Part shown: piece by piece, positions 1,546 through 42,989 of the stretch
Numbering within the stretch: the stretch's first letter is position 1
Layout: each line of letters starts with the position of its first letter
Source of the DNA: Lachnospiraceae bacterium
GTDB taxonomy: Bacteria > Bacillota > Clostridia > Lachnospirales > Lachnospiraceae
Reading direction: 5' to 3'
Length of the DNA stretch: 64,000 bases
Assembly: GCA_017453065.1 (NCBI GenBank)
Contig: JAFTKW010000001.1
Span: 1 to 64,000, forward strand
The notes under the pieces: generated by a model
Told to the model about the DNA's origin: nothing
The model's input: only the letters and a program-made list of their open reading frames with translations
The model's database searches: none
Position numbers and translations under genes: made by a program

Positions 1546-3174
1546 TCATATTCTTACAACTTCGTCACACGCTTCTACAATTTGCGAATCGTGTGATATA
1601 ATAATAATGATTTTATCTAACTTAATTTCTCGAACTAGATTAATAAATAGTTCTATCCCTTTTTCATCTAATGCACTAGTTGGTTCATCCAAGATAACAA
1701 CCTCTGTATCTTTTAACAAAGTGCGCATAATGGCAATACGCTGCTTTTGTCCTCCGCTTAGATTTGCAGTTTTACTATCAATTCTAGTATCATATGCTTG
1801 GGGTTGATTTTTTACAAAATCAAGTAAAGGATATTGGTGCAACTCCTCCATTTCTTTTTTTTCTCCTACATATCCATAGTAAATATTATTATAAATTGTA
1901 TCTTCCATCAGCATTGGTTCTTGATTCACAAAGCCAACTATATTTTTTCGCAAGTCCTCCGTATCAATTTTTGCCAATTCCGTCTCGTTCCATAATATTT
2001 CTCCCTGATTAGGTTTCAAAATTCCTAACATCAAAAGAACTAATGTTGTTTTTCCAGAACCATTTCCTCCTGTAATTGCGTATGCTTTTCCCTTTTCAAA
2101 TCTAACAGAAACGTCTCGAAGTAATTCATGCTCATTATACGCAAAACATACATTTTGAAGGTGTATCTGCCTGACATTACTTACTTTAACATCACCGTTT
2201 AACTCAGGTTGCATCTCAAAAACTTCTTCCATCCTATCATAACTCACCTTATATGATTGATAAATCTCTCCGCCCTTTACAAGAAACTGAACTGAAGATA
2301 TTAGTTCTTGTAGATAAATAAGTCCTGCAGAAAATCCAATTAGTACATCCACATTTCTCACATCAGTTCTTGCACTAAAGGAAAAGAACATCAACATTAC
2401 AGGAATAAGCATACGACCAATAACATTTGCCATATTACCTATTAAATTTTCGAAATTTAAAGATTTCACTGCGGCTTTTACAAAAACATTACCAACCTCT
2501 TTAAAATCTTTTTCAGTAGCCTCATACCAAGAATTTATTTTTATAAGCAATATATTAGATATTTTCCCACACACAACGGAAAAAAACTCCGCTTTTATAT
2601 TGGCATGTTTTTGTTTAAGATTATAATATTTCTTACGTGTCGAGAAATAGATCAATATATAAAAAAAGACTCCTGCCAGTGACGATAAACCAATATATAC
2701 ATTTATTTTAAGAAGTACGATTATAATTGCAAAACTTTTAATTGACTTAAATAATAAATAAGGAATTTGTTCTACATAAAAATCCATGATATAACAAAGA
2801 TCATTATTTATCCGCTGAGACAAATATGCACTATTTAGCCCACTAATTCTATCATATCTTATTCTCAGCATCTTCTGTAAAGTATCATGTTCCGCATCAA
2901 CAGTCATCATATTCGATAATTTATGATTATAGTCAGCAAAAAAATAAGTCCCCATTGACTCAAGAAATATCAAAGCAAAGATAACGCTTAGTTGTGTTAC
3001 AATATATTCTAACTCAACATTTGAAAAGTTAGAAATAATACTTGATATTTGCATTGGAATTATCAATTGAGTAAAAACCACACATGTATAAGCCCCCAAT
3101 AACATTGTGTACTTATATTTATATTTTGCTATATACTTAACATATCTATTTCTTTTCTTAATCTTCTTCCTCAT
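1546..3174 (-). CDS. ABC exporter, fused membrane and ATPase domains
   Basis: A type I ABC half-transporter of 542 residues that would work as a dimer in the cytoplasmic membrane. The first ~310 residues hold about six membrane segments. The ATPase domain has Walker A (GGNGSGKTT), signature LSGGQKQR and Walker B with DEPTSALD. There is no N-terminal C39 peptidase domain, so leader removal, if needed, must come from another protein; the adjacent HExxH protein is the obvious candidate. The ATG at 3174 overlaps the stop of that gene (ATATGA), which indicates translational coupling; an upstream in-frame GTG is less likely. It is the last gene of the radical SAM peptide operon and most likely exports the modified peptide. 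Confidence 0.88.
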   Translation of the reverse strand: MRKKIKKRNRYVKYIAKYKYKYTMLLGAYTCVVFTQLIIPMQISSIISNFSNVELEYIVTQLSVIFALIFLESMGTYFFADYNHKLSNMMTVDAEHDTLQKMLRIRYDRISGLNSAYLSQRINNDLCYIMDFYVEQIPYLLFKSIKSFAIIIVLLKINVYIGLSSLAGVFFYILIYFSTRKKYYNLKQKHANIKAEFFSVVCGKISNILLIKINSWYEATEKDFKEVGNVFVKAAVKSLNFENLIGNMANVIGRMLIPVMLMFFSFSARTDVRNVDVLIGFSAGLIYLQELISSVQFLVKGGEIYQSYKVSYDRMEEVFEMQPELNGDVKVSNVRQIHLQNVCFAYNEHELLRDVSVRFEKGKAYAITGGNGSGKTTLVLLMLGILKPNQGEILWNETELAKIDTEDLRKNIVGFVNQEPMLMEDTIYNNIYYGYVGEKKEMEELHQYPLLDFVKNQPQAYDTRIDSKTANLSGGQKQRIAIMRTLLKDTEVVILDEPTSALDEKGIELFINLVREIKLDKIIIIISHDSQIVEACDEVVRI

Positions 3175-3824
3175 ATCTTTTCCTTTTTTCTTGACAACCA
3201 CCTTAAAATGGTTTCCTCGCAGTTATCATTCATCAACGATATAAATCTATTTTTAAATGTGTCATATTGTTCTTCGCACATGTCATTCTGAAATATATCA
3301 AATACAGTCTCCAACACCAAATGCTCAAAAAAGGTCACTATTTCTTCTTTGTCTTCCTCAGAAATAGAACATTGTTGTTTCTTTTCTATCTCATCGAAAA
3401 CCTCCTCTAATTCAACATGGATAATTTCATGTGTTAATATCGCGGTTGTCACTTCTGGATTCTCTGCATTCACAAACAGCACTATATGATTGTCATCATA
3501 TTTTATAGAGATGCCACTATATGCTTTTTCTTCCTTTCGTGTAATTTCATCATTTATGAATACACCTAAAACTTTGTCAAATGAAACATTATAAATCCCT
3601 TGCTTTTTCAGCCACTCTTCTAAGCGGTCAAAATAATCTCTTTTACTCATATAGTTTTTAGTGTCAACCATACGTTGGTTATCATGATTATTTTTATAAA
3701 GAATTAGTCCTAAAATAATTTTCTTTATTAGACCTTCCAGATTTTCCGCAAATTCTTTCAATGAGAGTCTCTCATTATATTCCTTAATTATTTCATCTAC
3801 TCGCGAATTGCATACAAGTTTCAT
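3171..3824 (-). CDS. HExxH putative metalloprotease of the peptide cluster
   Basis: A soluble 217-residue protein with a zinc-protease-like motif THEIIHVELEEVF (H132, E133, H136), followed by acidic residues that could supply the third ligand. No signal peptide or membrane segment is seen. I do not recognise the rest of the sequence as a named family. It lies between the His-rich precursor gene and the ABC exporter and is translationally coupled to the latter. A role as leader peptidase for the precursor is the simplest reading, by analogy with RiPP clusters that pair a protease with an exporter; this is inference. An AGGAAG-type ribosome site precedes the ATG at 3824. Confidence 0.7.
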   Translation of the reverse strand: MKLVCNSRVDEIIKEYNERLSLKEFAENLEGLIKKIILGLILYKNNHDNQRMVDTKNYMSKRDYFDRLEEWLKKQGIYNVSFDKVLGVFINDEITRKEEKAYSGISIKYDDNHIVLFVNAENPEVTTAILTHEIIHVELEEVFDEIEKKQQCSISEEDKEEIVTFFEHLVLETVFDIFQNDMCEEQYDTFKNRFISLMNDNCEETILRWLSRKKEKI

Positions 3825-3855
3825 CTCTCTACCTACTTCCTATGTTTCTATTTTA

Positions 3856-3892
3856 TGTCTCTAATGGAAACTGAACGTTTCCATTAGGGACA
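3856..3892 (-). promoter_or_regulatory. hairpin between precursor and protease genes
   Basis: A long inverted repeat: the 11-bp core CTAATGGAAAC/GTTTCCATTAG is perfect around a 5-base loop, and four or five more pairs extend it, with one mismatch in the minus-strand RNA. It sits in the 98-base gap after the precursor stop. It lacks a T-run, so it is more likely an mRNA-stabilising or processing hairpin that keeps the precursor message in excess over the downstream genes than a full terminator. Confidence 0.6.
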
Positions 3893-3922
3893 CAAATGAT
3901 TCGGGATATATTTCCCCCTTTT

Positions 3923-4045
3923 TTACAGACATGCTCGATTCATATGACTATCAATATGTCCATGCGTATGTGCATCTGCATGCTCACCCAAGACAACGCT
4001 GTTTTCTATTTTTAGCAGAAGTCTTTTTAACTGCAAATTTGACAT
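3923..4045 (-). CDS. His-rich RiPP precursor peptide candidate (40 aa)
   Basis: A short gene directly downstream (28 bases) of the radical SAM gene on the same strand. It has one of the best ribosome sites in the region, GGGGAGGTG seven bases before the ATG at 4045. The 40-residue product has a leader-like first half rich in Leu and Lys (MSNLQLKRLLLKIENSVV) and then a core with five histidines in 13 residues (HADAHTHGHIDSH), ending in RACL with a single cysteine at position 39. Precursors of radical SAM peptides are typically this size and lie beside the maturase. The function is inferred from position and composition. The single Cys argues against classic multi-thioether SCIFF or sactipeptide precursors. 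Confidence 0.75.
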   Translation of the reverse strand: MSNLQLKRLLLKIENSVVLGEHADAHTHGHIDSHMNRACL

Positions 4046-4072
4046 TGTTTCACCTCCCCTTTATTTTTCATG

Positions 4073-5470
4073 CTAAAAGTTGTATTGCAAAAAATCCATT
4101 ACAACCTCTGTATCATTATGTATAAGCCAAATTAATTCTTCAAATAAATATTTGTTAAATTCACAAAATATTGATTTTTTCTCAATCTGTCTACATTCAG
4201 CGTAGACTTTACACGGACAAGTACAACAAAATCTTTTCCATGGACAATCTATGCATTCTTCTATCTCCGATGTTATACGACCCTGGCTTTTCTGAAACCA
4301 GTCGTTATTCTGAATTTCTTCAACTAAATCCATTTTTTCATCATTTACATTTCCTACTTTTCCTTGTCCGATAAAACAGCACTCTTGGCACAAGAATACA
4401 TCTCCGTTTGATGTTATAAACAATTGGTTGACACCCGCACCGCACGGCTCTTTATAACACATGAACGGATGCCATAGTAGCAGTCCCAAAAAATAGTATA
4501 TAGTATTAGCTTCGTAATACCGTTTCTCTTGTAACATTCTCTTAATAAATATCACATATTCTCTTGCCATTTCTTTAGCTTTGAATTCTCCATTATTTAT
4601 ATCTAAAACATTTTCACCTCGACCTATCGTTGTGATTAGATTAGCTCTAAATTCTTTACACCCTGTATATTTCAATAATTCAACAATACTATCGTACTGC
4701 CCCAGTTCATACATTACTGATATTGTACTATATGGTATCCCATATTCTTTTAACAATTTAATGCCTTTAACTATGTCATCAAATGTACCTGCCCCATTGC
4801 AATACACTCTATTGTCATTATATGTTCCCACACCATCTATACTAATTCCGACAGCAAATTCATATTTTTTGAAAAATGATGCCATTTCTCTGGTCAACAA
4901 AGTGCCATTTGTTTGTATTGTAAACTTAATTTTTTTACCCGCGCTCTTGGCACCCTCCACCATTTGAGGGACGACTTTTTTAATCATTTCAAAATTTAAT
5001 AATGCTTCGCCTCCATTAAACTCTATACATATAGAATCACCACATGCCTCTAAAGAAATAAACTTTTTGAATGCTTTAATAGCAGTATCCGTATTCATGT
5101 TAGCACCACGGGTTTTCGCATCTTCAAAGCAATATTTACATCTCATATTACAACGCTCGGATGTTTCTAATATTAATAATCTAAACGCATTATCTCTATT
5201 GTCATCAACGGCTATTTCAAGCAGATCATCCTCTTGCAGTTTTCGAAATAAACTTGTATCAACAAATACATCCATTTTTTTTGTATCCAAAGTTTCCTCA
5301 AACAATTGGTTGTACTTTGGATCAATTTTCCAAACACCAGTATCAATATTTAACAGTAGTGTTTCTTCATTTCTTTGTTGCATCCAAAAGTTTAACTCAT
5401 GTTTAAGGTCTCCATTTTTTTCAAGAATTCTTACTTTTATCAGTTTCTTATCCATATTCATACCGCCCAA
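4073..5470 (-). CDS. radical SAM/SPASM peptide maturase
   Basis: A 465-residue enzyme. An N-terminal region of about 100 residues may bind a leader peptide. The radical SAM core has SERCNMRCKYCFED, with the 4Fe-4S cysteines at about 107, 111 and 114, followed by the SAM-binding FNGGEALLNF. The C-terminal SPASM region has CGAG, CQECC and a final cluster CIDCPWKRFCCTCPC plus later cysteines, fitting two auxiliary Fe-S clusters. Such enzymes install thioether, C-C or C-O cross-links in ribosomal peptides; the likely substrate is the His-rich peptide just downstream. I chose a TTG at 5470, six bases after a perfect AGGAGG; ATG 5461 is the alternative. A longer frame to 5530 would start inside a terminator hairpin and is rejected. 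Confidence 0.88.
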   Translation of the reverse strand: MGGMNMDKKLIKVRILEKNGDLKHELNFWMQQRNEETLLLNIDTGVWKIDPKYNQLFEETLDTKKMDVFVDTSLFRKLQEDDLLEIAVDDNRDNAFRLLILETSERCNMRCKYCFEDAKTRGANMNTDTAIKAFKKFISLEACGDSICIEFNGGEALLNFEMIKKVVPQMVEGAKSAGKKIKFTIQTNGTLLTREMASFFKKYEFAVGISIDGVGTYNDNRVYCNGAGTFDDIVKGIKLLKEYGIPYSTISVMYELGQYDSIVELLKYTGCKEFRANLITTIGRGENVLDINNGEFKAKEMAREYVIFIKRMLQEKRYYEANTIYYFLGLLLWHPFMCYKEPCGAGVNQLFITSNGDVFLCQECCFIGQGKVGNVNDEKMDLVEEIQNNDWFQKSQGRITSEIEECIDCPWKRFCCTCPCKVYAECRQIEKKSIFCEFNKYLFEELIWLIHNDTEVVMDFLQYNF

Positions 5471-5516
5471 ATAACGCCTCCTAACATATCTTTCCCATTT
5501 CATTTTCCTCTTTGCG

Positions 5517-5575
5517 CGAAAAAACCCCATGACTTTTTCGGGGATTAGAATTTCCCGTAAATATCATGGGGTTTA
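5517..5575 (-). terminator. terminator/attenuator before the radical SAM gene
   Basis: The minus strand has AAACCCCATGA and TCATGGGGTTT as an 11-bp stem (5565-5575 with 5522-5532), with the 3' arm running into six T. It could end the message of the upstream TPR regulator, or act as an attenuator in the leader of the radical SAM operon, whose ribosome site lies about 35 bases further on. Confidence 0.65.
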
Positions 5576-5627
5576 GCACAAAACTCTTTTATTCTTTAAT
5601 CAAATAAACACCAACGGAGAGAATGTT

Positions 5628-5792
5628 ATGTACAAAAGATTATTCGTGTTCTTATCATTATCCACTATGCTTCTAGATCTCTTTATAAACACTTTCATCA
5701 TATTACCTTCTACTAATTCCACCAAAGAGAAAGATAACATTACTTTTTCTCTCTGTGAGGTAGATACCGATTGTGACCCTTTCGCCTCTTAG
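5628..5792 (+). CDS. putative secreted signalling peptide (54 aa)
   Basis: A small gene divergent from the radical SAM operon and converging on the regulator gene, whose end it overlaps by four bases. GGAGAG lies eight bases before the ATG. The product starts MYKR, continues with about 23 mostly hydrophobic residues (a signal-peptide-like segment, but with one Asp), and ends in a polar tail, NITFSLCEVDTDCDPFAS, with two cysteines. This build (Lys/Arg, hydrophobic stretch, short C-terminal tail) matches pro-pheromones of RRNPP systems such as PapR and Phr. Position next to a TPR-type HTH regulator supports that. Function is inference; an alternative is a small secreted bacteriocin-like or membrane peptide. 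Confidence 0.6.
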   Translation: MYKRLFVFLSLSTMLLDLFINTFIILPSTNSTKEKDNITFSLCEVDTDCDPFAS

Positions 5793-7624
5793 TACCATTC
5801 TTCGTCTGTACCAGTCAAAGTCTCATATGAACGCTTTGCAATTCTTGCAGTATTAGTTTGCAATAATTCAGATATGTAGAAAGCCAGTTTATAATATTGC
5901 AAACTGGTTTTCTTATTTTTTAAATTTTCTAAAGCATCTGCTTTGTTATTTAAAAATAGAGGCAGCGACTTTCTATTACCGGACTCCATCGAGATCCTAA
6001 TTCCCATCTCTGAATAAAATAATTCTTCATCATGCTGTTTCAATTGTCCGCAACAAGTAGATAATCTTTGAAGTATTAATATTACAATCCGATAATGAAA
6101 TTCTATCTGCACTTTACTCTTTTGATAATACGCCAACATTTCCTTCAACAAACAAACTGCGGAATCGTGTTTATTTTTGCATCTCAGCACATCCACCACT
6201 TGTATCAAAATTGACATCTCGCGTTCCGAAAAAGAGTGCATCCAAAATTCTTCCGTCCACTCCTCTACATGGTCACTATTAGGTACTTTCTGAATTGTTA
6301 AATTTAGAACATTCATTAAAATACTAAATTGCTCTTCTAGTGGTATTTTATTCGTTTTTTGTTCTATCACAAACCGCACTTCTTCTATATATTGCAAATT
6401 TTGCACAAGAGATAAATCCAACGCTCTTCTTAACTGTTCTAACTTCTTATTTGCATCCGCATAATCGCCTTTAATTATCAGTAGTTCCAATTCCCACCGT
6501 GCATCCAACACTTCAAAGTCATCTGTCTCAATGGCGCTAAAATACCGTTCTTGAGGAAGGGATAATTTCTGTGCAATCGCTTTATATGTTCTATGATTCG
6601 GATTCTGTTTCCCCGTCTCGATTCGAGATAAGGATTCTGGTTCGCAAACATCTTCACTCAATTCTTCCTGCGTATAACCTTTTTCACATCTGTTCCGATA
6701 AATCATTTCATTTAACAATACGATTTCCTGGCTAACATCAAGTTGGTATAGACCATCATCTACCTCTTCCATGCTCATTGCGGTATCATTCATCAACTCT
6801 CGCCATGCCTGTAACTGTACTCTGAATTTTCTAGTTTCCTCTTCTAACCCCATTTTTTCAGCTACATCCACATAAGTTCCCAAAATGTTTTCTAAGCCCA
6901 TCACAAATCCGGTTGAAGTCATAATCTCAATAGTTTTCTTTGCCAACCATAAACACTCTGCATACTTTCCTTTTTCGAACAAAAGTGGCAGATATTGTCC
7001 AACCACCTTGGGATAGACCTTACTTTTTTCCTGCAAATCCTCAAAGTGGATTTCTATATAGTTTACCATTTGTCTCAGGATTTTCATTGCAACTTCTTTA
7101 TCCGGTTGCAACCTTTGCCATAGCAAAATAGCACTAATCTCCTGTGCCCCAAGCAACGTATATCTACTTATTCCATTTTTAAATGTTGGGACCGTAAGTA
7201 AAATAGCCTTTTCTAAAAGTTCTACACTTTTTTCGCAATTTTGATGTTGTTTTTCCTCCACAATGGCTTTCATAATCAAATAAAACTGTTCTTGCAACTT
7301 CTCATTACAGGTTCGGTCAAATGCTTCTTTTTCCAGCAATAATGCCTCTACCATAGACCAATCTCTATGAAGTTGAGCCACGCACACTTTTTGCCGCCAC
7401 TCAAAATATATGTATTCTTTCTCAGATAACAACGTTACAAACTTATCTGCCGATATTCCAAGACGTTGCAGTATCGCCGAAAGTAATAATCGATCCATGT
7501 GTCTATCACCATTTACATATCTTGAGAATGCCGTAGTAGAACACAACCCAACACATAAAGTTCTCTGACTAATATTCTGTTTTATGATAACTTCATTAAT
7601 CATGGCGCCCAAATTCTTTTTCAT
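5789..7624 (-). CDS. tandem-HTH TPR regulator (RRNPP/Rgg-like)
   Basis: A 611-residue cytoplasmic regulator. The first ~45 residues form a divergent HTH (SQRTLCVGLCSTTAFSRYVN). A second, canonical XRE HTH lies at about 303-357 (GYTQEELSEDVCEPESLSRI). The remaining helical blocks look like TPR repeats, giving HTH-TPR-HTH-TPR. Peptide-sensing regulators of the Rgg/PlcR/PrgX type pair one HTH with TPRs; two HTH units in one chain is unusual. The start is ATG 7624, seven bases after GAGGGAG; the longer frame to 7663 lacks a site. It probably senses the adjacent 54-residue peptide and controls the radical SAM operon; this is inference from context. Confidence 0.8.
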   Translation of the reverse strand: MKKNLGAMINEVIIKQNISQRTLCVGLCSTTAFSRYVNGDRHMDRLLLSAILQRLGISADKFVTLLSEKEYIYFEWRQKVCVAQLHRDWSMVEALLLEKEAFDRTCNEKLQEQFYLIMKAIVEEKQHQNCEKSVELLEKAILLTVPTFKNGISRYTLLGAQEISAILLWQRLQPDKEVAMKILRQMVNYIEIHFEDLQEKSKVYPKVVGQYLPLLFEKGKYAECLWLAKKTIEIMTSTGFVMGLENILGTYVDVAEKMGLEEETRKFRVQLQAWRELMNDTAMSMEEVDDGLYQLDVSQEIVLLNEMIYRNRCEKGYTQEELSEDVCEPESLSRIETGKQNPNHRTYKAIAQKLSLPQERYFSAIETDDFEVLDARWELELLIIKGDYADANKKLEQLRRALDLSLVQNLQYIEEVRFVIEQKTNKIPLEEQFSILMNVLNLTIQKVPNSDHVEEWTEEFWMHSFSEREMSILIQVVDVLRCKNKHDSAVCLLKEMLAYYQKSKVQIEFHYRIVILILQRLSTCCGQLKQHDEELFYSEMGIRISMESGNRKSLPLFLNNKADALENLKNKKTSLQYYKLAFYISELLQTNTARIAKRSYETLTGTDEEWY

Positions 7625-7712
7625 AAACAACTCCCTCTTAACAACACACATACAGTCAGCCACCTCTTCTCAAACATCAAAACGAAATGTGTCTAACCTC
7701 TTGTAATCTTAT

Positions 7713-7741
7713 GTTATATAACGAATACATTTTATCTTCAA
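7713..7741 (-). promoter_or_regulatory. sigma-70-type promoter of the TPR regulator
   Basis: Read on the minus strand: TTGAAG, a 17-base spacer, then TATAAC. It lies about 90 bases upstream of the chosen start at 7624. Confidence 0.55.
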
Positions 7742-8690: not shown

Positions 8691-9392
8691 CTAATCCTTC
8701 TTTATCGAATACTTCTCTCTAAACGCTTCATAATCTGCTTTCGCGATTTTATATTGCTCTCCTGCCTGTTCCTCATTCATAGAATACTCTGACTCCTGTG
8801 CCTCACCTTGCAACGCATCCGAAATAATCCTTCTTAAATAGTCTTTCTGATCATAATTCGCCATAACTAGCGAATCTCTTACATACATTGGGTTATTCCT
8901 AAGTAATGCCACCTGAAAATCTACACCTTTACCCCTTAAATAATGCCACAAAAATGTGATGCAAGTTCTGGTGTTTCCTTCTCTGAAAGGATGAATGCTC
9001 CATAATTCCAATAAGAAATCAGAAACCACATCTCCCTTCTTCGCCCAATCCAAGTCTGCATATTGTTGCAATAATTTCTTTAAGCGTTTCTCAATCTCAT
9101 GGTAGTCTGCATATTCTGCGTAACCACCGGACAAAACACGCTCGCTCTTATATAGATTCTCTTTTCGCAATGTTCCTGCCCATTCATAAATATCCCCAAA
9201 TAAATACTTATGAACATTTACCATGTGCTCTACATCATAAGTATAGGCAATCCTTGTGGGCTTCACATCCAATCCCAGCAGTTTTGCAAACACTTTCTGT
9301 ATTTCAAATTTCTCCAAAAGTTCCTTATCACGAATATTATATTTATTGATAAGAACATCACTTTCCGGGTAACAATTCTTTCCACCACTCAT
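8691..9392 (-). CDS. Fic-domain toxin
   Basis: A 233-residue Fic protein. The catalytic loop is HPFREGNTRTCITF with H134. Fic enzymes transfer AMP or a related nucleotide part to target hydroxyls, usually toxic. In the canonical HxFx(D/E)GNxRxxR loop the last Arg helps hold the nucleotide phosphates; here that position is Ile, so the reaction or substrate may differ. No inhibitory (S/T)xxxE(G/N) helix is apparent in the protein itself, fitting a class in which the inhibitor is a separate antitoxin. The upstream HTH antitoxin gene ends three bases before this start, so the two form a toxin-antitoxin operon. Confidence 0.85.
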   Translation of the reverse strand: MSGGKNCYPESDVLINKYNIRDKELLEKFEIQKVFAKLLGLDVKPTRIAYTYDVEHMVNVHKYLFGDIYEWAGTLRKENLYKSERVLSGGYAEYADYHEIEKRLKKLLQQYADLDWAKKGDVVSDFLLELWSIHPFREGNTRTCITFLWHYLRGKGVDFQVALLRNNPMYVRDSLVMANYDQKDYLRRIISDALQGEAQESEYSMNEEQAGEQYKIAKADYEAFREKYSIKKD

Positions 9393-9395
9393 ATA

Positions 9396-9755
9396 TTACG
9401 CTCCCAAATACTCAAATCTATCAATTCTGACTTCCATCTCTTCCAACGTTATTTTTCCAAAAATATAGGAGTCCAACACCTCTAAAAACAATTCATCGGG
9501 ACCATTTGTAGCACTTAACATAATAGCCATAGCGTTTTCCACGCTCTTTCTCCTCGCTTCACATGCTTCCACATAACTTTGGCTAATAAGCATCCCTTTA
9601 TACTGTAAAATCGTTCTCATCATATTAACAACGTATGTCGGAGGGTTTCTTCTTTCCTGCTCCCAGTCTTTCAAAGTAGAAACCGGAACATCAAACATTT
9701 TGGCAAATTTACTCTGACTTAATCCTGTTTGTAAACGTAATTCTCTCACTTCCAT
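9396..9755 (-). CDS. HTH antitoxin with VbhA-like tail
   Basis: A 119-residue partner of the Fic toxin. The N-terminal half is an XRE-type HTH (GLSQSKFAKMFDVPVSTLKDWEQ), probably autoregulating the operon. The C-terminal half (ARRKSVENAMAIMLSATNGP, then LEVLDSYIFGKITLEEM) resembles the VbhA-type antitoxin helix bundle that plugs the Fic active site. Where VbhA-like proteins have the inhibitory SxxxEG, this sequence reads IMLSATNG, so the inhibitory Glu seems lost or shifted. ATG 9755 has GGAGG eight bases upstream. A truncated copy of this C-terminus survives at 16206-16330. Confidence 0.8.
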   Translation of the reverse strand: MEVRELRLQTGLSQSKFAKMFDVPVSTLKDWEQERRNPPTYVVNMMRTILQYKGMLISQSYVEACEARRKSVENAMAIMLSATNGPDELFLEVLDSYIFGKITLEEMEVRIDRFEYLGA

Positions 9756-9847
9756 GATAATTACCTCCACTCATTTCTCTATATATAGCATACGGCATTG
9801 CCTACTATTTTGCAAGATGTTTCAAAAATTATGCCATTTTGAAAATT

Positions 9848-10029: not shown

Positions 10030-11868
10030 TTATAAACATTTGTCGTCAAATTTGTTTATTATACTAATTGCCCCCTCTTGTACATTAGCTCGTAGCACAT
10101 GCCACCAATTCTTTGAATTAGGTATGGGTTGACATTCTATTTTTAGGTTCTCACATGTTGATATATTATTTACAGTTAGTGAACATTTGCAATCACCAAA
10201 ATGCAGATTAGATGTATAATTATTTACCCATATATCATATATTCCTGCATTCCATTCTTGCACCATTATTTCTTCTTTTCCGGGACATTCACGCACATCC
10301 CCAGCATAACTCGCTTCTACTATTTCAGCCTTGTCATAAGATAAAACCTTTACATCTTGTGTTTCACCGGGCTTTCTATACACGAGATACAAATCCAAAT
10401 CTTGTCCTTTTTGCAGACCATCCCAGATAAGCGTAAACAATATTCTATCCTGTTTTCCAAATATGCCATCACAAACTTTAGCTTGTACTAATCTGTAAAC
10501 TTCCATCGAAAAATCATCTACACATTTCGTTCTTGGGCGGCATAACGAAAACATTCCATATCTTTCTTTTCTAATTGTGCCTAATCTATCCTCAACCTTT
10601 TCTTTATTAATCTCTCCATAATCCGTCAACAACACTTTTGCATTAGTTCTATTGTTAGCATAATCTATGATTGCATTGCTAAAGTTTTTAGTATTTGATT
10701 TTTTATATTGTTTACACTCAACAACTACTATCGAATCCTCCGAATTATCTGCTCTTCCATACACAATCGAATAATCCGGTTGTATTCCTTCCTTTCTGCT
10801 ACTCCCCACAGGCGTTACACTAGTTTTTGTTCTTAGTTCTGTCCAGAACTCAAACATTTCATCTCCATATGTCACTTTAGCAATACACGCTCCTGAAAAC
10901 GGAAAAGATAAAACACCTTTTTCGATATTAAAGGATAGTTTATCCTTGGGAAACTTCGCAATCATTTGTGTAAATATCCAAATAGAATATACTTCATAAC
11001 GCTTTTTCCACACCGGCAGTTGCAAAAACTGGTCCCATTTTTCAACTAGAACGTCACACGGAACAACTTCCATTTTTAAACTTTTAATAAAATCCTCCAA
11101 CTTTTCTTTTATAACTATTTGCTCTTCCATTAATAATTCACTATAATTTTCTGCTAACAAGTATAAAATCTCTAATATGCTATTTAAACAATAATCAATT
11201 TCTGGCCAAAGTAAAGGGTCTTCCCGTTTTTGACATTCTCTCCGCCACCCTCCTCTTGGTATCTCTGTTGAACGATAATAATAAAATAACGCTTTCCAGA
11301 AAGAATATGCCTTCAATAATTCCTCTTCAATAGTACAACCATTAACAATCTGCTCATAATCTAATTTTTTAGCTGGCCAACTATTCATGTTGTGAAAATA
11401 TTGTTCTTTCCATTCTTTATATACAATGCTTTTAACATCATATGATTTATTTCTTTGACATCTTATGTTCCATAATTTCCGTAATTGTTCTTCTGTAAGC
11501 ACTATATAATTTTGATGCACCTGAATTTCTTGCAATGACTTTTTTGCATGCAGAAAATGCTCTATATTAAATGTCTCACTAACTGAATCACTTGACTTAT
11601 ACTCTATCTCAATATTCTCTGTGGATGACTGAGCTTTACATTGTTCGAACAATGATAAGATATCCTCATACATAAAACTCAATGGAGAAATTACTTTAAA
11701 AAAGCTTCTTAATAATTCTTCCGGTAATAATGTGCAGATTTCTTTTTCATCAGTAATCATCATATCTTCTAACATATCATTCAATAAACTTTTGTCATAA
11801 TATGTATCCCCAAACTCTCCCATTAACTTTAGTTTTTCCCATAATTCATATGTGTTTTCATTTCTCAT
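10030..11868 (-). CDS. PD-(D/E)XK nuclease-like protein with C-terminal beta domain
   Basis: A 612-residue protein of no family I can name. The N-terminal ~290 residues are helical. The middle has a PD-(D/E)XK-like pattern: D365 in QPDYSIVYG, then E384 and K386 in IVVVECKQYKK, followed by NAKVLLTDYG. The last ~130 residues resemble a DUF2135-like beta-sandwich (LIWDGLQKGQDLDLYLV and later AGIYDIWVNNYTS). A single large gene with a nuclease core, next to a toxin-antitoxin pair in an accessory region, fits a stand-alone defence or DNA-processing function; this is inference. AGAGGG precedes the ATG at 11868. No operon partner is seen. Confidence 0.6.
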   Translation of the reverse strand: MRNENTYELWEKLKLMGEFGDTYYDKSLLNDMLEDMMITDEKEICTLLPEELLRSFFKVISPLSFMYEDILSLFEQCKAQSSTENIEIEYKSSDSVSETFNIEHFLHAKKSLQEIQVHQNYIVLTEEQLRKLWNIRCQRNKSYDVKSIVYKEWKEQYFHNMNSWPAKKLDYEQIVNGCTIEEELLKAYSFWKALFYYYRSTEIPRGGWRRECQKREDPLLWPEIDYCLNSILEILYLLAENYSELLMEEQIVIKEKLEDFIKSLKMEVVPCDVLVEKWDQFLQLPVWKKRYEVYSIWIFTQMIAKFPKDKLSFNIEKGVLSFPFSGACIAKVTYGDEMFEFWTELRTKTSVTPVGSSRKEGIQPDYSIVYGRADNSEDSIVVVECKQYKKSNTKNFSNAIIDYANNRTNAKVLLTDYGEINKEKVEDRLGTIRKERYGMFSLCRPRTKCVDDFSMEVYRLVQAKVCDGIFGKQDRILFTLIWDGLQKGQDLDLYLVYRKPGETQDVKVLSYDKAEIVEASYAGDVRECPGKEEIMVQEWNAGIYDIWVNNYTSNLHFGDCKCSLTVNNISTCENLKIECQPIPNSKNWWHVLRANVQEGAISIINKFDDKCL

Positions 11869-40299: not shown

Positions 40300-40343
40300 A
40301 AAGCCAGGCTTTATCTTATTGATAAAGTCTGGCTTCTTTTTTA
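40300..40343. terminator. bidirectional terminator
   Basis: AAGCCAGGCTTTATC and GATAAAGTCTGGCTT pair over 15 positions (one mismatch), followed by CTTTTTT on the plus strand and A/T-rich sequence on the minus strand. It separates converging trkH and the GTPase-nuclease gene. Confidence 0.88.
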
Positions 40344-42989
40344 TTCATCACCCAAAATATCATCGGGTAGCACATCGCCTAGTAAGTTGCGACCTTTTTC
40401 CTGTCTCTCCAAGTAGTCTGCTCTAAGGGTCTGCTCCATAGCCTTGACCTCCGCCTCCAAGTCTCTGGCAGAAAGAAGCTTGCATCCCTGTCCACGAATG
40501 ATGATTTGCTCTAAGCCATCCGAGGTTGCCACCGTCACGTCATACTTCGATCCATGCTCATGGGCGAATTTCTCAATGTACTGATCTGCCGTTTCCGCTT
40601 CCTTTGTGTAGACTATATGGATATTGTGATAGTTAAGTATTTCTGTGTCATGCCCCTTTACTCGGTAGGCATCAAATACTAGGATAACTTCACATTTTTT
40701 CATCCCCTGATAATTACAGAGAATATCCTGCAGTCTGCCTCTGGCTCCATCTATGGTGGTTTCCGCCAGAGCCTTTAATTCCTCCCATGCAAAGATGATA
40801 TTGTAACCATCCACCAAAAGATAAGCATCTTTTTTCACAGAAGGCTTGTAACTTCTGGTCTCTGGGTATTGACTCACTGTAGCGGCTTTCTTTCGAAGCC
40901 ATTTGTTACTGCGATCCTGCCTACGATTGGCATTGGAGGCTCGTTCAATGATTTGGTCAATTTCCTCTGTTCCAAGCGCCATATCAATAGCAGAGACTAC
41001 ACTAGTCAATTCGCCCTTTCTTCGAGCCTCAAGTGCCGCTTCTTCAAAGGCTTCCTCTTTGCTCTTTCCAAAATAGCTCTCCAAATGCATGTACTCTGGA
41101 ACTTCATACCAAGGAACCACAAAGCCTGCTCCATGAGCACAAAAAACGGAACCGGTTGGATTTCGCATATCTCTCTCCGGATCATAACCGCGCTGCTCTA
41201 TGATGGCTTCACTGTCTGTACATGGTTCGTATCCCTTTAATTGACAATTCAGCTGTCCCATACCCTTGGTGTAAGCCGCCAAGTCCTTTTGATAATTCTT
41301 CATGGTACGCACTGGTCCTTGCCCAGACAAAACAGCGCCACCCCGAGTCAACTGTGGTGCTCCAAAACTACATCCCATGCGCTCCAAGTCTGTCATTGCC
41401 CTCCCAATCATGCCTTCAGGCACTTCCAATGTATAAGAGTAAAAAGGCTCCAACAGAACACTTTCGGCCTGCATCAGCCCCTGCCTAACCGCTCGATAGG
41501 TTGCCTGCCTAAAGTCTCCACCCTCGGTATGCTTCTGGTGCGCTCTTCCAGCCACCAATGTAATCTTCATATCCGTTATGACTGAGCCAGTCAAAACGCC
41601 TCTATGAGCCCGTTCTTCCAAATGAGTCAAAATCAGTCTCTGCCAATTTCGCTCCAATTGGTCCTCGCTAACTCCACTGGCAAAGATAAGTCCGCTTCCT
41701 CTTTCTCCCGGTTCAAGGAGCAAATGCACCTCTGCATAATGTCTTAACGGTTCAAAATGTCCCACACCTTCCACGGTGTTTGCTATGGTCTCTTTGTAGA
41801 CAATTCGTCCATCTCCAAATTCTACATCCACGCCAAATCGTTCTTTGATGATACGTTGCAGAATCTCTATCTGTACCTCGCCCATGACTTTGACATGGAT
41901 TTCCTTTAATTCCTCTTCCCAAACAATCTGTAGGGCGGGTTCTTCCTCTTCCAATGCTCTCAGTTTAGGAAGCATCTGCAAAGGATCTATACCGTCCAAC
42001 AGAATTCTATAACTAAGGACAGGTTCCAATAGGGCTACGTTCTTTCCTTGCTCCGAACCTAATCCCTCTCCAATTTGTATCTGCGTAAGTCCAGTGGCTA
42101 CTACAATATCACCCGCATGGGCCACGTCCACCAGTTCATACTTTTCTCCCGAGTAAAGGCGAAGTTGATTGATTTTTTCCTCCCAGTCCTGCCCTTTCAT
42201 AAGGCTTCGCACGGCTAGTTCGCCACCTGTCACTTTAAGGTGCGTCAAACGGCTTCCCTGCACATCTCTGGTAATCTTAAACACCCTTGCTCCAAACTCA
42301 GTTGGATAATTCTTTGCCTTCGTGTATGTTTCAAGCCCCTTTAAAAACTCCTCTATCCCTTGTAGTTTCAATGCGCTACCGAAAAAGCATGGGAACACCT
42401 TGCGCTGTGCTATCAAGTCCACCACCGTATCGTGGGGTACTGTGCCTTCCTCCAAAAACTGGCTCAAAGCATCCTCATCACACATAGCCACATTCTCTGC
42501 AAATACCTCCTCATCCTGCATGCTAAAATCCACACAGTTCTCCGACAGTTGGCTTCGCAGTTCTTCCAGTATCTGCTGAGAATCTGTATCTGGCATATCC
42601 ATCTTGTTGACAAACAATATAGTAGGAACCTTATACTGCTTAAACAACTGCCATAACGTCTTGGTATGCCCCTGCACGCCTGCACTTCCGCTGATTACAA
42701 GAATTGCATAATCAAGTACTTGCAGAGTTCTCTCCATCTCCGCCGAAAAGTCTACATGCCCTGGAGTATCCAAAAGTGTAGCCTGTTTGTCTCCCAATGC
42801 AAAAACCGCCTGCTTGGAAAACACAGTGATACCTCTTTCTCTCTCTACCTGGAAATTATCCAAAAAAGCATCCTGGTTGTCCACTCTGCCCAGTTTACGA
42901 ATCGCACCTGTCTTATATAAAATTGCCTCTGAAAGTGTGGTCTTGCCCGCGTCAACATGGGCACAGACTCCCAGTACTATATTTCGCAT
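40341..42989 (-). CDS. TetM-like ribosomal GTPase fused to YacP/Rae1-type NYN nuclease
   Basis: An 882-residue fusion. Residues ~1-650 are a translational GTPase of the TetM/EF-G-like ribosomal protection group: G1 AHVDAGKTTLSE, G3 DTPGHVDF, G4 NKMD, then domains II-V. Residues ~721-855 are an NYN/PIN-like domain with the acidic set of YacP/Rae1: D727 in LLVDGYNII, D773 in VFDAY, D802 in AETADQYIEK and D824 in ATSDGLEQ. Rae1 of Bacillus subtilis cuts mRNA in the ribosomal A site. TetM itself is about 640 residues and lacks the nuclease. It probably docks on stalled ribosomes and cuts the message; tetracycline protection is possible but unproven. AGGGACG precedes the ATG. Confidence 0.85.
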   Translation of the reverse strand: MRNIVLGVCAHVDAGKTTLSEAILYKTGAIRKLGRVDNQDAFLDNFQVERERGITVFSKQAVFALGDKQATLLDTPGHVDFSAEMERTLQVLDYAILVISGSAGVQGHTKTLWQLFKQYKVPTILFVNKMDMPDTDSQQILEELRSQLSENCVDFSMQDEEVFAENVAMCDEDALSQFLEEGTVPHDTVVDLIAQRKVFPCFFGSALKLQGIEEFLKGLETYTKAKNYPTEFGARVFKITRDVQGSRLTHLKVTGGELAVRSLMKGQDWEEKINQLRLYSGEKYELVDVAHAGDIVVATGLTQIQIGEGLGSEQGKNVALLEPVLSYRILLDGIDPLQMLPKLRALEEEEPALQIVWEEELKEIHVKVMGEVQIEILQRIIKERFGVDVEFGDGRIVYKETIANTVEGVGHFEPLRHYAEVHLLLEPGERGSGLIFASGVSEDQLERNWQRLILTHLEERAHRGVLTGSVITDMKITLVAGRAHQKHTEGGDFRQATYRAVRQGLMQAESVLLEPFYSYTLEVPEGMIGRAMTDLERMGCSFGAPQLTRGGAVLSGQGPVRTMKNYQKDLAAYTKGMGQLNCQLKGYEPCTDSEAIIEQRGYDPERDMRNPTGSVFCAHGAGFVVPWYEVPEYMHLESYFGKSKEEAFEEAALEARRKGELTSVVSAIDMALGTEEIDQIIERASNANRRQDRSNKWLRKKAATVSQYPETRSYKPSVKKDAYLLVDGYNIIFAWEELKALAETTIDGARGRLQDILCNYQGMKKCEVILVFDAYRVKGHDTEILNYHNIHIVYTKEAETADQYIEKFAHEHGSKYDVTVATSDGLEQIIIRGQGCKLLSARDLEAEVKAMEQTLRADYLERQEKGRNLLGDVLPDDILGDE

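Follow-up and report, generated by a model that had tools for sequence, protein, structure and literature searches.

What signal, if any, governs the peptide-modification genes at the start of a Lachnospiraceae contig (GenBank assembly GCA_017453065.1, contig JAFTKW010000001.1, positions 1 to 64,000, hereafter the window)? A first-pass annotation, made from the letters alone, had described there a regulator with two helix-turn-helix (HTH) units, a 54-codon gene converging on it, a radical SAM/SPASM enzyme, a 40-codon open reading frame (ORF), an HExxH protein, and an exporter, and had read the whole as an analogue of streptococcal Rgg/SHP quorum sensing. All of these parts are present, with the minus-strand order regulator, radical SAM/SPASM enzyme, 40-codon ORF, HExxH ORF, and ABC exporter (Table 1), and we found two further features, an imperfect palindrome and a hairpin. 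Our analysis makes it likely that the locus is an intracellular peptide-pheromone circuit of the PlcR/Rgg type with a fused receptor.

The regulator was assigned to a minus-strand ORF (5789-7663) whose likely start, the ATG at 7624, is preceded by AAGAGGGAG and yields 611 residues. Pfam detected the second HTH alone (HTH_3, E 8.6e-11); the first had no Pfam match and was revealed instead by comparing profiles of the two halves, which proved homologous over 275 columns (hhalign E 3.6e-32) and so bear out the claim of two HTH units in one regulator. Rgg chains aligned with the N-terminal module at profile positions 5-106 (E about 1e-6), whereas PlcR matched the C half over its whole length in profile comparison (E 1.2e-20) and also resembled it by fold in a structure comparison of the predicted model, and PlcR is the closest solved relative of this half. 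No Rgg chain stood among the 50 VIA-align matches listed, which is no argument against Rgg kinship. In a tree that included four split, two-gene versions of the receptor, N halves formed one group and C halves another (100/100 support each, with a bootstrap not fully settled). Judged by its sequence, the regulator consists of two paralogous HTH-tetratricopeptide repeat (TPR) receptors in one chain. The two receptors nearest to it are 33% identical; the other 22 receptors of the A1 set are 593 to 657 residues long, and split halves measure about 300 residues. Relationship to PlcR and Rgg is supported, and because of it the analogy with Rgg/SHP is sound as far as a pheromone-type receptor with a converging gene is concerned, while the C half is nearer to PlcR.

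The small gene is convergent with the regulator, with a terminal overlap of 4 nucleotides (nt), and its product has, by hydropathy only, a basic N terminus and a hydrophobic stretch. We searched receptor stops for such genes with a filter requiring 35 to 85 codons, a basic residue in the first 12, a hydropathy maximum of at least 2.0, a Shine-Dalgarno match of at least 4, and an end from -30 to +15 of the regulator stop. It was passed at 23 of 41 receptor loci and at none of 146 control genes (other genes of at least 250 residues from the same loci), so that the exported-peptide-like gene singled out beside this regulator does recur. Across 57 receptor loci 29 passed the same filter, and 34 passed a looser one (Shine-Dalgarno match of 3, overlap up to 130 nt), which found the gene beside 29/40 fused or paired receptors and 4/15 single short ORFs. 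The overlap with the regulator stop is exactly 4 nt in 15 of the 33 small-gene loci with enough flank. Three pairs of homologues from other loci gave nonsynonymous/synonymous substitution rates (dN/dS) of 0.46/1.52, 0.36/1.01, and 0.56/1.24, with dN lower each time; dS was not estimable in two further pairs, and protein-based alignments favour low dN. A receptor with a converging, exported-peptide-like gene is thus supported as a recurring unit in Lachnospiraceae. By analogy, the small gene may encode the precursor of a secreted signal that is later re-imported.

The precursors are 43 to 77 residues long with long tails. The tail in the window ends in SLCEVDTDCDPFAS, and those of the two closest receptors end in NLCFIGDEWENS and SICFIGGGWENT. 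In a set of 31 peptides (without those of L076, L079, and L085), [DE]LP, the core of the PlcR pheromone, occurred in 6 tails against 1.2 in shuffles (p 0.001), the motif having been picked after inspection. A conserved tail cysteine was rejected, as cysteine makes up 19 of 913 tail residues (0.021, against a background of 0.0186) and occurs in 15/31 peptides.

The palindrome of the window has 21-nt arms, 86% complementary and 11 nt apart, both arms carrying the ATGA-type motif that recurs at other loci, and 53 nt separate it from the ATG of the small gene downstream. Its score is 12, the best of 20 shuffles reaching 11. The scan took the best inverted repeat within 460 nt beyond each regulator (L069, with too short a flank, was excluded), and its controls were 39 noncoding gaps flanked by other genes at these loci, which are shorter (mean 295 nt), and 107 other gene ends. 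Scores of at least 15 were reached in 18/33 small-gene loci, 6/23 loci without a small gene, 0/39 gaps, and 1/107 gene ends, and scores of at least 11 in 26/33, 10/23, and 14/39 gaps. The motif ATG[AT][CT]NTTT, which was derived and counted in one and the same set of loci, stood on both arms in 12/33 small-gene loci, 2/23 without, 0/39 gaps, and 0/107 gene ends. Two loci (L054 and L055) have no small gene under the looser filter, yet carry a motif palindrome. Among the 26 small-gene loci scoring at least 11, 13 have the palindrome 49 to 65 nt upstream of the small-gene start. The best-matching palindromes span 38 to 47 bp with ATGAC-N-TTT half-sites. Across the whole genome of the window the half-site pattern CATGANNTTTNCGGG has two matches, both inside the palindrome (backward control, 0).

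Several observations weigh against a pheromone circuit, the first of them concerning this palindrome. A score of 12 falls within the range of ordinary gaps, and therefore what sets the window palindrome apart is its motif and its place rather than its score. Besides, read in the regulator's direction it forms a hairpin that folds well (z -2.65) and is followed by six T, as a terminator would be, so that a terminator role is possible. The palindromes might thus be intrinsic terminators alone, perhaps bidirectional, separating the regulator transcript from the operon, with any regulation residing elsewhere. A- and T-tracts flank many of them, in 14 of the 39 ordinary gaps a repeat reaches 11 or more, the window's reaching 12, and one motif palindrome of another genome (G194) lies between two ordinary convergent genes, presumably a MATE and a MecA-like gene. 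A terminator, however, needs neither sequence shared across receptors that are about 25% identical nor a regular distance to a start on the opposite strand, and the high scores and two-arm motifs so frequent at small-gene loci are absent from the gaps. We therefore consider termination alone rather unlikely. Common sequence, high-scoring repeats at many loci, and regular spacing favour a binding site on sequence grounds, and the palindrome may be both operator and terminator.

Searches for the motif elsewhere add little independent support, because receptor matches had already supplied the motif and backward controls also matched (in 3/250 and 3/50 genomes). In 250 family genomes the strict pattern occurred at three places in two genomes (backward control, three genomes); two places were receptor loci that had supplied the motif, and the third, G194:C14, had no receptor near. 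In 50 chosen genomes a relaxed pattern was found in 6/18 with a receptor and 0/32 without, against 2/18 and 1/32 for its backward control. Its matches fall at seven distinct places, since an eighth, G194:C125:92, duplicates the end of C52; four of the seven were receptor loci already used. Of the three new ones, G194:C14 and G042:C92 had no receptor near, and G246:C190, at a contig end, had a motif palindrome followed by a gene for a small secreted protein and by ABC genes, resembling cargo at other loci. At G042:C92 (L134, about 3487) the motif-like palindrome lies between response-regulator-like genes, and no receptor was found on the contig. We also observed a half-site copy near a transposase-like gene at about 269-283 of G194:C125 (L121); single half-sites occur elsewhere in G194 too, and repeats may carry part of them.

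A second group of points concerns the cargo. The window enzyme matched Pfam Radical_SAM (E 5.2e-20) and SPASM (E 1.4e-6), and probably starts at the TTG at 5470, with AGGAGG six bases before it (alternatives, ATG at 5461 or 5455). In NCBIfam its scores were all far below cut-off among the best 25 of 65 families, including HxsB (138 bits, cut-off 370) and PapB (137 bits, cut-off 340). The 40-codon His-rich ORF is preceded by GGGGAGGTGAAACA-ATG and has no family in Pfam or NCBIfam, and the HExxH ORF has no Pfam family above cut-off and gave an unusable single-sequence structure model (pLDDT, the predicted local distance difference test, 42). A radical SAM/SPASM maturase beside a small putative precursor and an exporter, as found here, is the signature of a cluster for a ribosomally synthesized and post-translationally modified peptide (RiPP). 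Of 299 family genomes, the 298 besides the window's own contain no relative of the enzyme at E<=1e-40, which contradicts the expectation that the regulator would be conserved beside this type of enzyme, and the 249 others of a 250-genome set contain none of the HExxH protein at E<=1e-4. Among 216 genomes of the class we found four distant relatives of the enzyme (29 to 34% identity), none beside such a receptor in the flanks examined; two of them (L136 and L139) adjoin Cys-rich peptides, which we take to be SCIFF-like. Further relatives in viral contigs were 27 to 34% identical. In two such contigs, L091 (246 kb) and L092 (232 kb), several radical-SAM-like genes lie close together, and L091 also encodes a Cys-rich protein of 421 residues.

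This lack of close relatives, in the family genomes and beside the distant class enzymes, would suit an ordinary radical SAM operon that lies by accident beside an unrelated regulator. We regard such an accident as improbable, since the small gene and the operon have the palindrome between them, an arrangement shared with other loci, and radical SAM genes follow other such receptors too. A radical SAM motif lies within 4 kb downstream of the receptor in 7/37 loci (window included) and upstream in 2/39, and an ABC signature lies downstream in 8 and upstream in 2 of the same loci; this downstream excess is a modest lean, not proof. The radical SAM/SPASM cargo includes enzymes near CcpM (L034, just below cut-off), AlbA-like (L039), CXXX (L047, above cut-off), ACGX-like (L049), and partial (L055), with a further one in L097. 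Other loci have a ThiF-like protein with an M16-like peptidase (L057), EAL proteins (L074 and L040), or, in several cases, small secreted-looking proteins followed by ABC transporters; a Pfam search of ten cargo proteins gave nothing above cut-off for nine. What recurs is the receptor with small gene and palindrome rather than the radical SAM cluster, which we read as one cargo of a widespread switch because its enzyme and HExxH protein are without close relatives in the family genomes searched. By the sequences compared here, a receptor-type switch is widespread in the family and stands before differing cargo.

The remaining points concern the receptor model, whose confidence is moderate (pLDDT 73.6; predicted template modelling score, pTM, 0.49), and the small gene. 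The window tail has no [DE]LP, and even the looser filter found no small gene in 23/57 receptor loci, some of which have short flanks, so that conservation of this gene in homologous loci, on which the first-pass annotation relied, is only partial. That the small gene encodes a membrane-active toxin, immunity, or bacteriocin-like peptide checked by antisense overlap, instead of a signal, is more improbable still: its shortness, hydrophobic N terminus, antisense overlap, and often bacteriocin-like cargo would suit such a peptide, but at least 19 residues follow the hydrophobic stretch in 28/31 peptides, the partner is a PlcR/Rgg-type receptor, and two related receptors keep related C-terminal peptide ends.

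From the elements of the pheromone circuit we infer secretion, re-import, binding of peptide and DNA, a direction of regulation, and a product. The small convergent gene would yield a precursor with an exported N terminus, whose C-terminal tail would be trimmed, taken back into the cells, and bound in the TPR groove of the receptor, most likely in the PlcR-like C module. The fused pair of paralogous modules would replace the dimer of ordinary PlcR/Rgg proteins and bind the palindrome, on either side of which the pheromone gene and the radical SAM operon start in opposite directions. Peptide-bound receptor would switch on both, giving autoinduction together with cargo expression, although the choice of activation over derepression is a guess based on PlcR. 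In the window the cargo would be a His-rich peptide that the radical SAM enzyme modifies, with the HExxH protein the probable trimming enzyme and the ABC transporter the probable exporter; at other loci a switch of this kind would precede other operons. A broader proposal, whose chances we put just short of even, is that these proteins form an undescribed Lachnospiraceae class of cytoplasmic pheromone receptor, in which anciently duplicated modules, fused or encoded by a coupled gene pair, would act as an obligate heterodimer on a two-part palindrome and serve as a family-wide toolkit switching RiPP, bacteriocin-like, and cyclic di-GMP cargo. Within such a class one module may be peptide-sensing and the other specialized, or each may read a different peptide.

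Receptor matches at E<=1e-10 were found in 29 of 299 family genomes, including the window's own with three receptors, and at E<=1e-20 in 8 of 391 genomes of a class-wide sample, several with one half only; both counts are lower bounds, as few candidates were scored per genome. Named carriers are two Lachnospiraceae metagenome-assembled genomes and Anaerocolumna aminovalerica DSM 1283 (L074). The two further two-module receptors of the window's genome (G000:C20 and C22; L032 and L033) each have their own convergent small gene, and L032 has a different, strong palindrome. The 57-locus counts replace those of an earlier 48-locus set, which had partly been selected after the small gene was seen. 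Left out were duplicates (L053, equal to L074; L073, equal to L052), copies (L075 of the window, L083 of L032, and L088 of L033), and L087, the partner gene of L080. Ten weaker loci (L021, L023, L024, L026-L030, and split partners without their own locus) are in no count, and L003-L031 are shorter cuts of places mostly retaken with longer flanks. A phage origin of the receptor was rejected, the five "phage" records matched being human-faecal scaffolds that look bacterial. Among four phage-labelled records, all marked unverified, the small gene is present in L096 and L097 and not in L095 or L098, the last of which ends 210 nt beyond the receptor. No plasmid matched, and no viral contig matched the receptor.

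Table 1. Features of the locus, with window coordinates and the basis of each assignment
Feature	Position	Strand	Basis or remark
Fused receptor/regulator, HTH-TPR-HTH-TPR, 611 aa	5789..7624	-	Profile comparisons, fold match, predicted model
N-terminal HTH-TPR module	6755..7624	-	Rgg-chain profile match and homology to C module
C-terminal HTH-TPR module, PlcR-like along its length	5792..6736	-	HTH_3 at about 6563-6700
Putative pheromone precursor gene, 54 codons	5628..5792	+	Convergent, 4-nt overlap with regulator stop
Palindrome, candidate operator	5522..5574	none	Inverted-repeat search; upstream of small gene and of radical SAM operon
Radical SAM/SPASM peptide maturase	4073..5470	-	Pfam and NCBIfam scores
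Putative His-rich precursor peptide, 40 aa	3923..4045	-	ORF with strong Shine-Dalgarno
Hairpin between precursor and HExxH gene	3852..3896	none	20-nt arms, 90% complementary; function inferred, possibly a partial terminator
Orphan HExxH protein, possible leader peptidase	3171..3824	-	ORF contains HEIIH
ABC exporter, membrane and ATPase domains	1546..3201	-	Pfam, NCBIfam

Elsewhere in the window, all on the minus strand, we noted a Fic-domain protein (8691-9392; VbhT, the nearest model in NCBIfam, scores below cut-off) and, immediately upstream of its gene, one for an HTH protein (9396-9770), the two perhaps forming a toxin-antitoxin-type pair. We also noted a 612-residue protein with no Pfam match (10030-11868) and a GTPase resembling elongation factor G that is fused to a YacP-like NYN domain (40341-42989).

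The open-licence literature searched has little on peptide quorum sensing in the Lachnospiraceae, a major gut family. If the pheromone circuit is real, finding a receptor locus also identifies the signal gene, the likely operator, and the cargo that go with it, and therefore unknown signals, DNA sites, and peptide products could be found together. Besides, the system could be tested in a named strain, since A. aminovalerica DSM 1283 carries it. The fused form raises the question why evolution turned a PlcR-like dimer into a single chain whose halves differ.

His-Xaa-Ser systems are defined by a precursor built of His-Xaa-Ser repeats. The window enzyme scores best against HxsB and the ranthipeptide enzyme PapB, whereas its precursor is His-rich and not made of such repeats. 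The RRNPP family is described as having a TPR peptide-binding receptor of 250 to 500 residues, mostly with an HTH, and an adjacent propeptide gene of 10 to 100 residues, whose product is SEC-secreted and whose mature peptide is re-imported and bound by the receptor (PMC10075063). The window has a TPR receptor with an HTH and an adjacent 54-residue propeptide gene; at 611 residues the receptor exceeds that range, into which split halves would fall, and RRNPP_detector would therefore pass over fused receptors of about 600 residues. The main text of that paper does not contain the word Lachnospiraceae, nor does "Lachnospir" occur in two evolution papers (PMC9765709 and PMC12700828). The Qsr/Qsp systems of Clostridium acetobutylicum are reported to have small ORFs, built of a signal and a tail, downstream of their RRNPP receptors (PMC7376267), and so share clostridial receptors with such ORFs, whereas their receptors are single-module; "convergent," "overlap," and "two HTH" are absent from the main text of that paper.

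The first-pass annotation named no described cluster of this exact make-up. We found no fused two-module receptor in titles and abstract starts of the open-licence literature, although that is no proof of novelty; clostridial single-module systems, Rgg/SHP control of radical SAM peptides, and the convergent overlapping peptide gene as such are already known. An Rgg receptor has a single HTH with an Rgg C-terminal part. The regulator of the window differs from it in having two modules with a PlcR-like C half, and only the short N-terminal stretch described above matches Rgg chains; its precursors are longer-tailed, and it belongs to another bacterial family. The likeness lies in the convergent overlap at the receptor's 3' end, as reported for shp and rgg of Group III Rgg/SHP (PMC13361665), and radical SAM peptide clusters (RaS-RiPPs) are reported targets of streptococcal Rgg (PMC8092268).

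The closest counterpart is PlcR-PapR of the Bacillus cereus group, with which the locus shares a C module matching PlcR in sequence and fold, a small exported-type peptide gene adjoining the receptor, and a palindromic target, here a candidate, with ATG within the half-site. It differs in having two HTH-TPR modules per chain and a peptide gene that is convergent and overlapping, whereas papR is codirectional with its receptor gene. The candidate target differs as well, one site having been found in the window's genome. The candidate operator here is a palindrome of 53 bp whose ATGA arms are widely separated, and the best examples elsewhere span 38 to 47 bp, whereas the PlcR box, TATGnAnnnnTnCATA, is given as 16 bp (PMC2464732).

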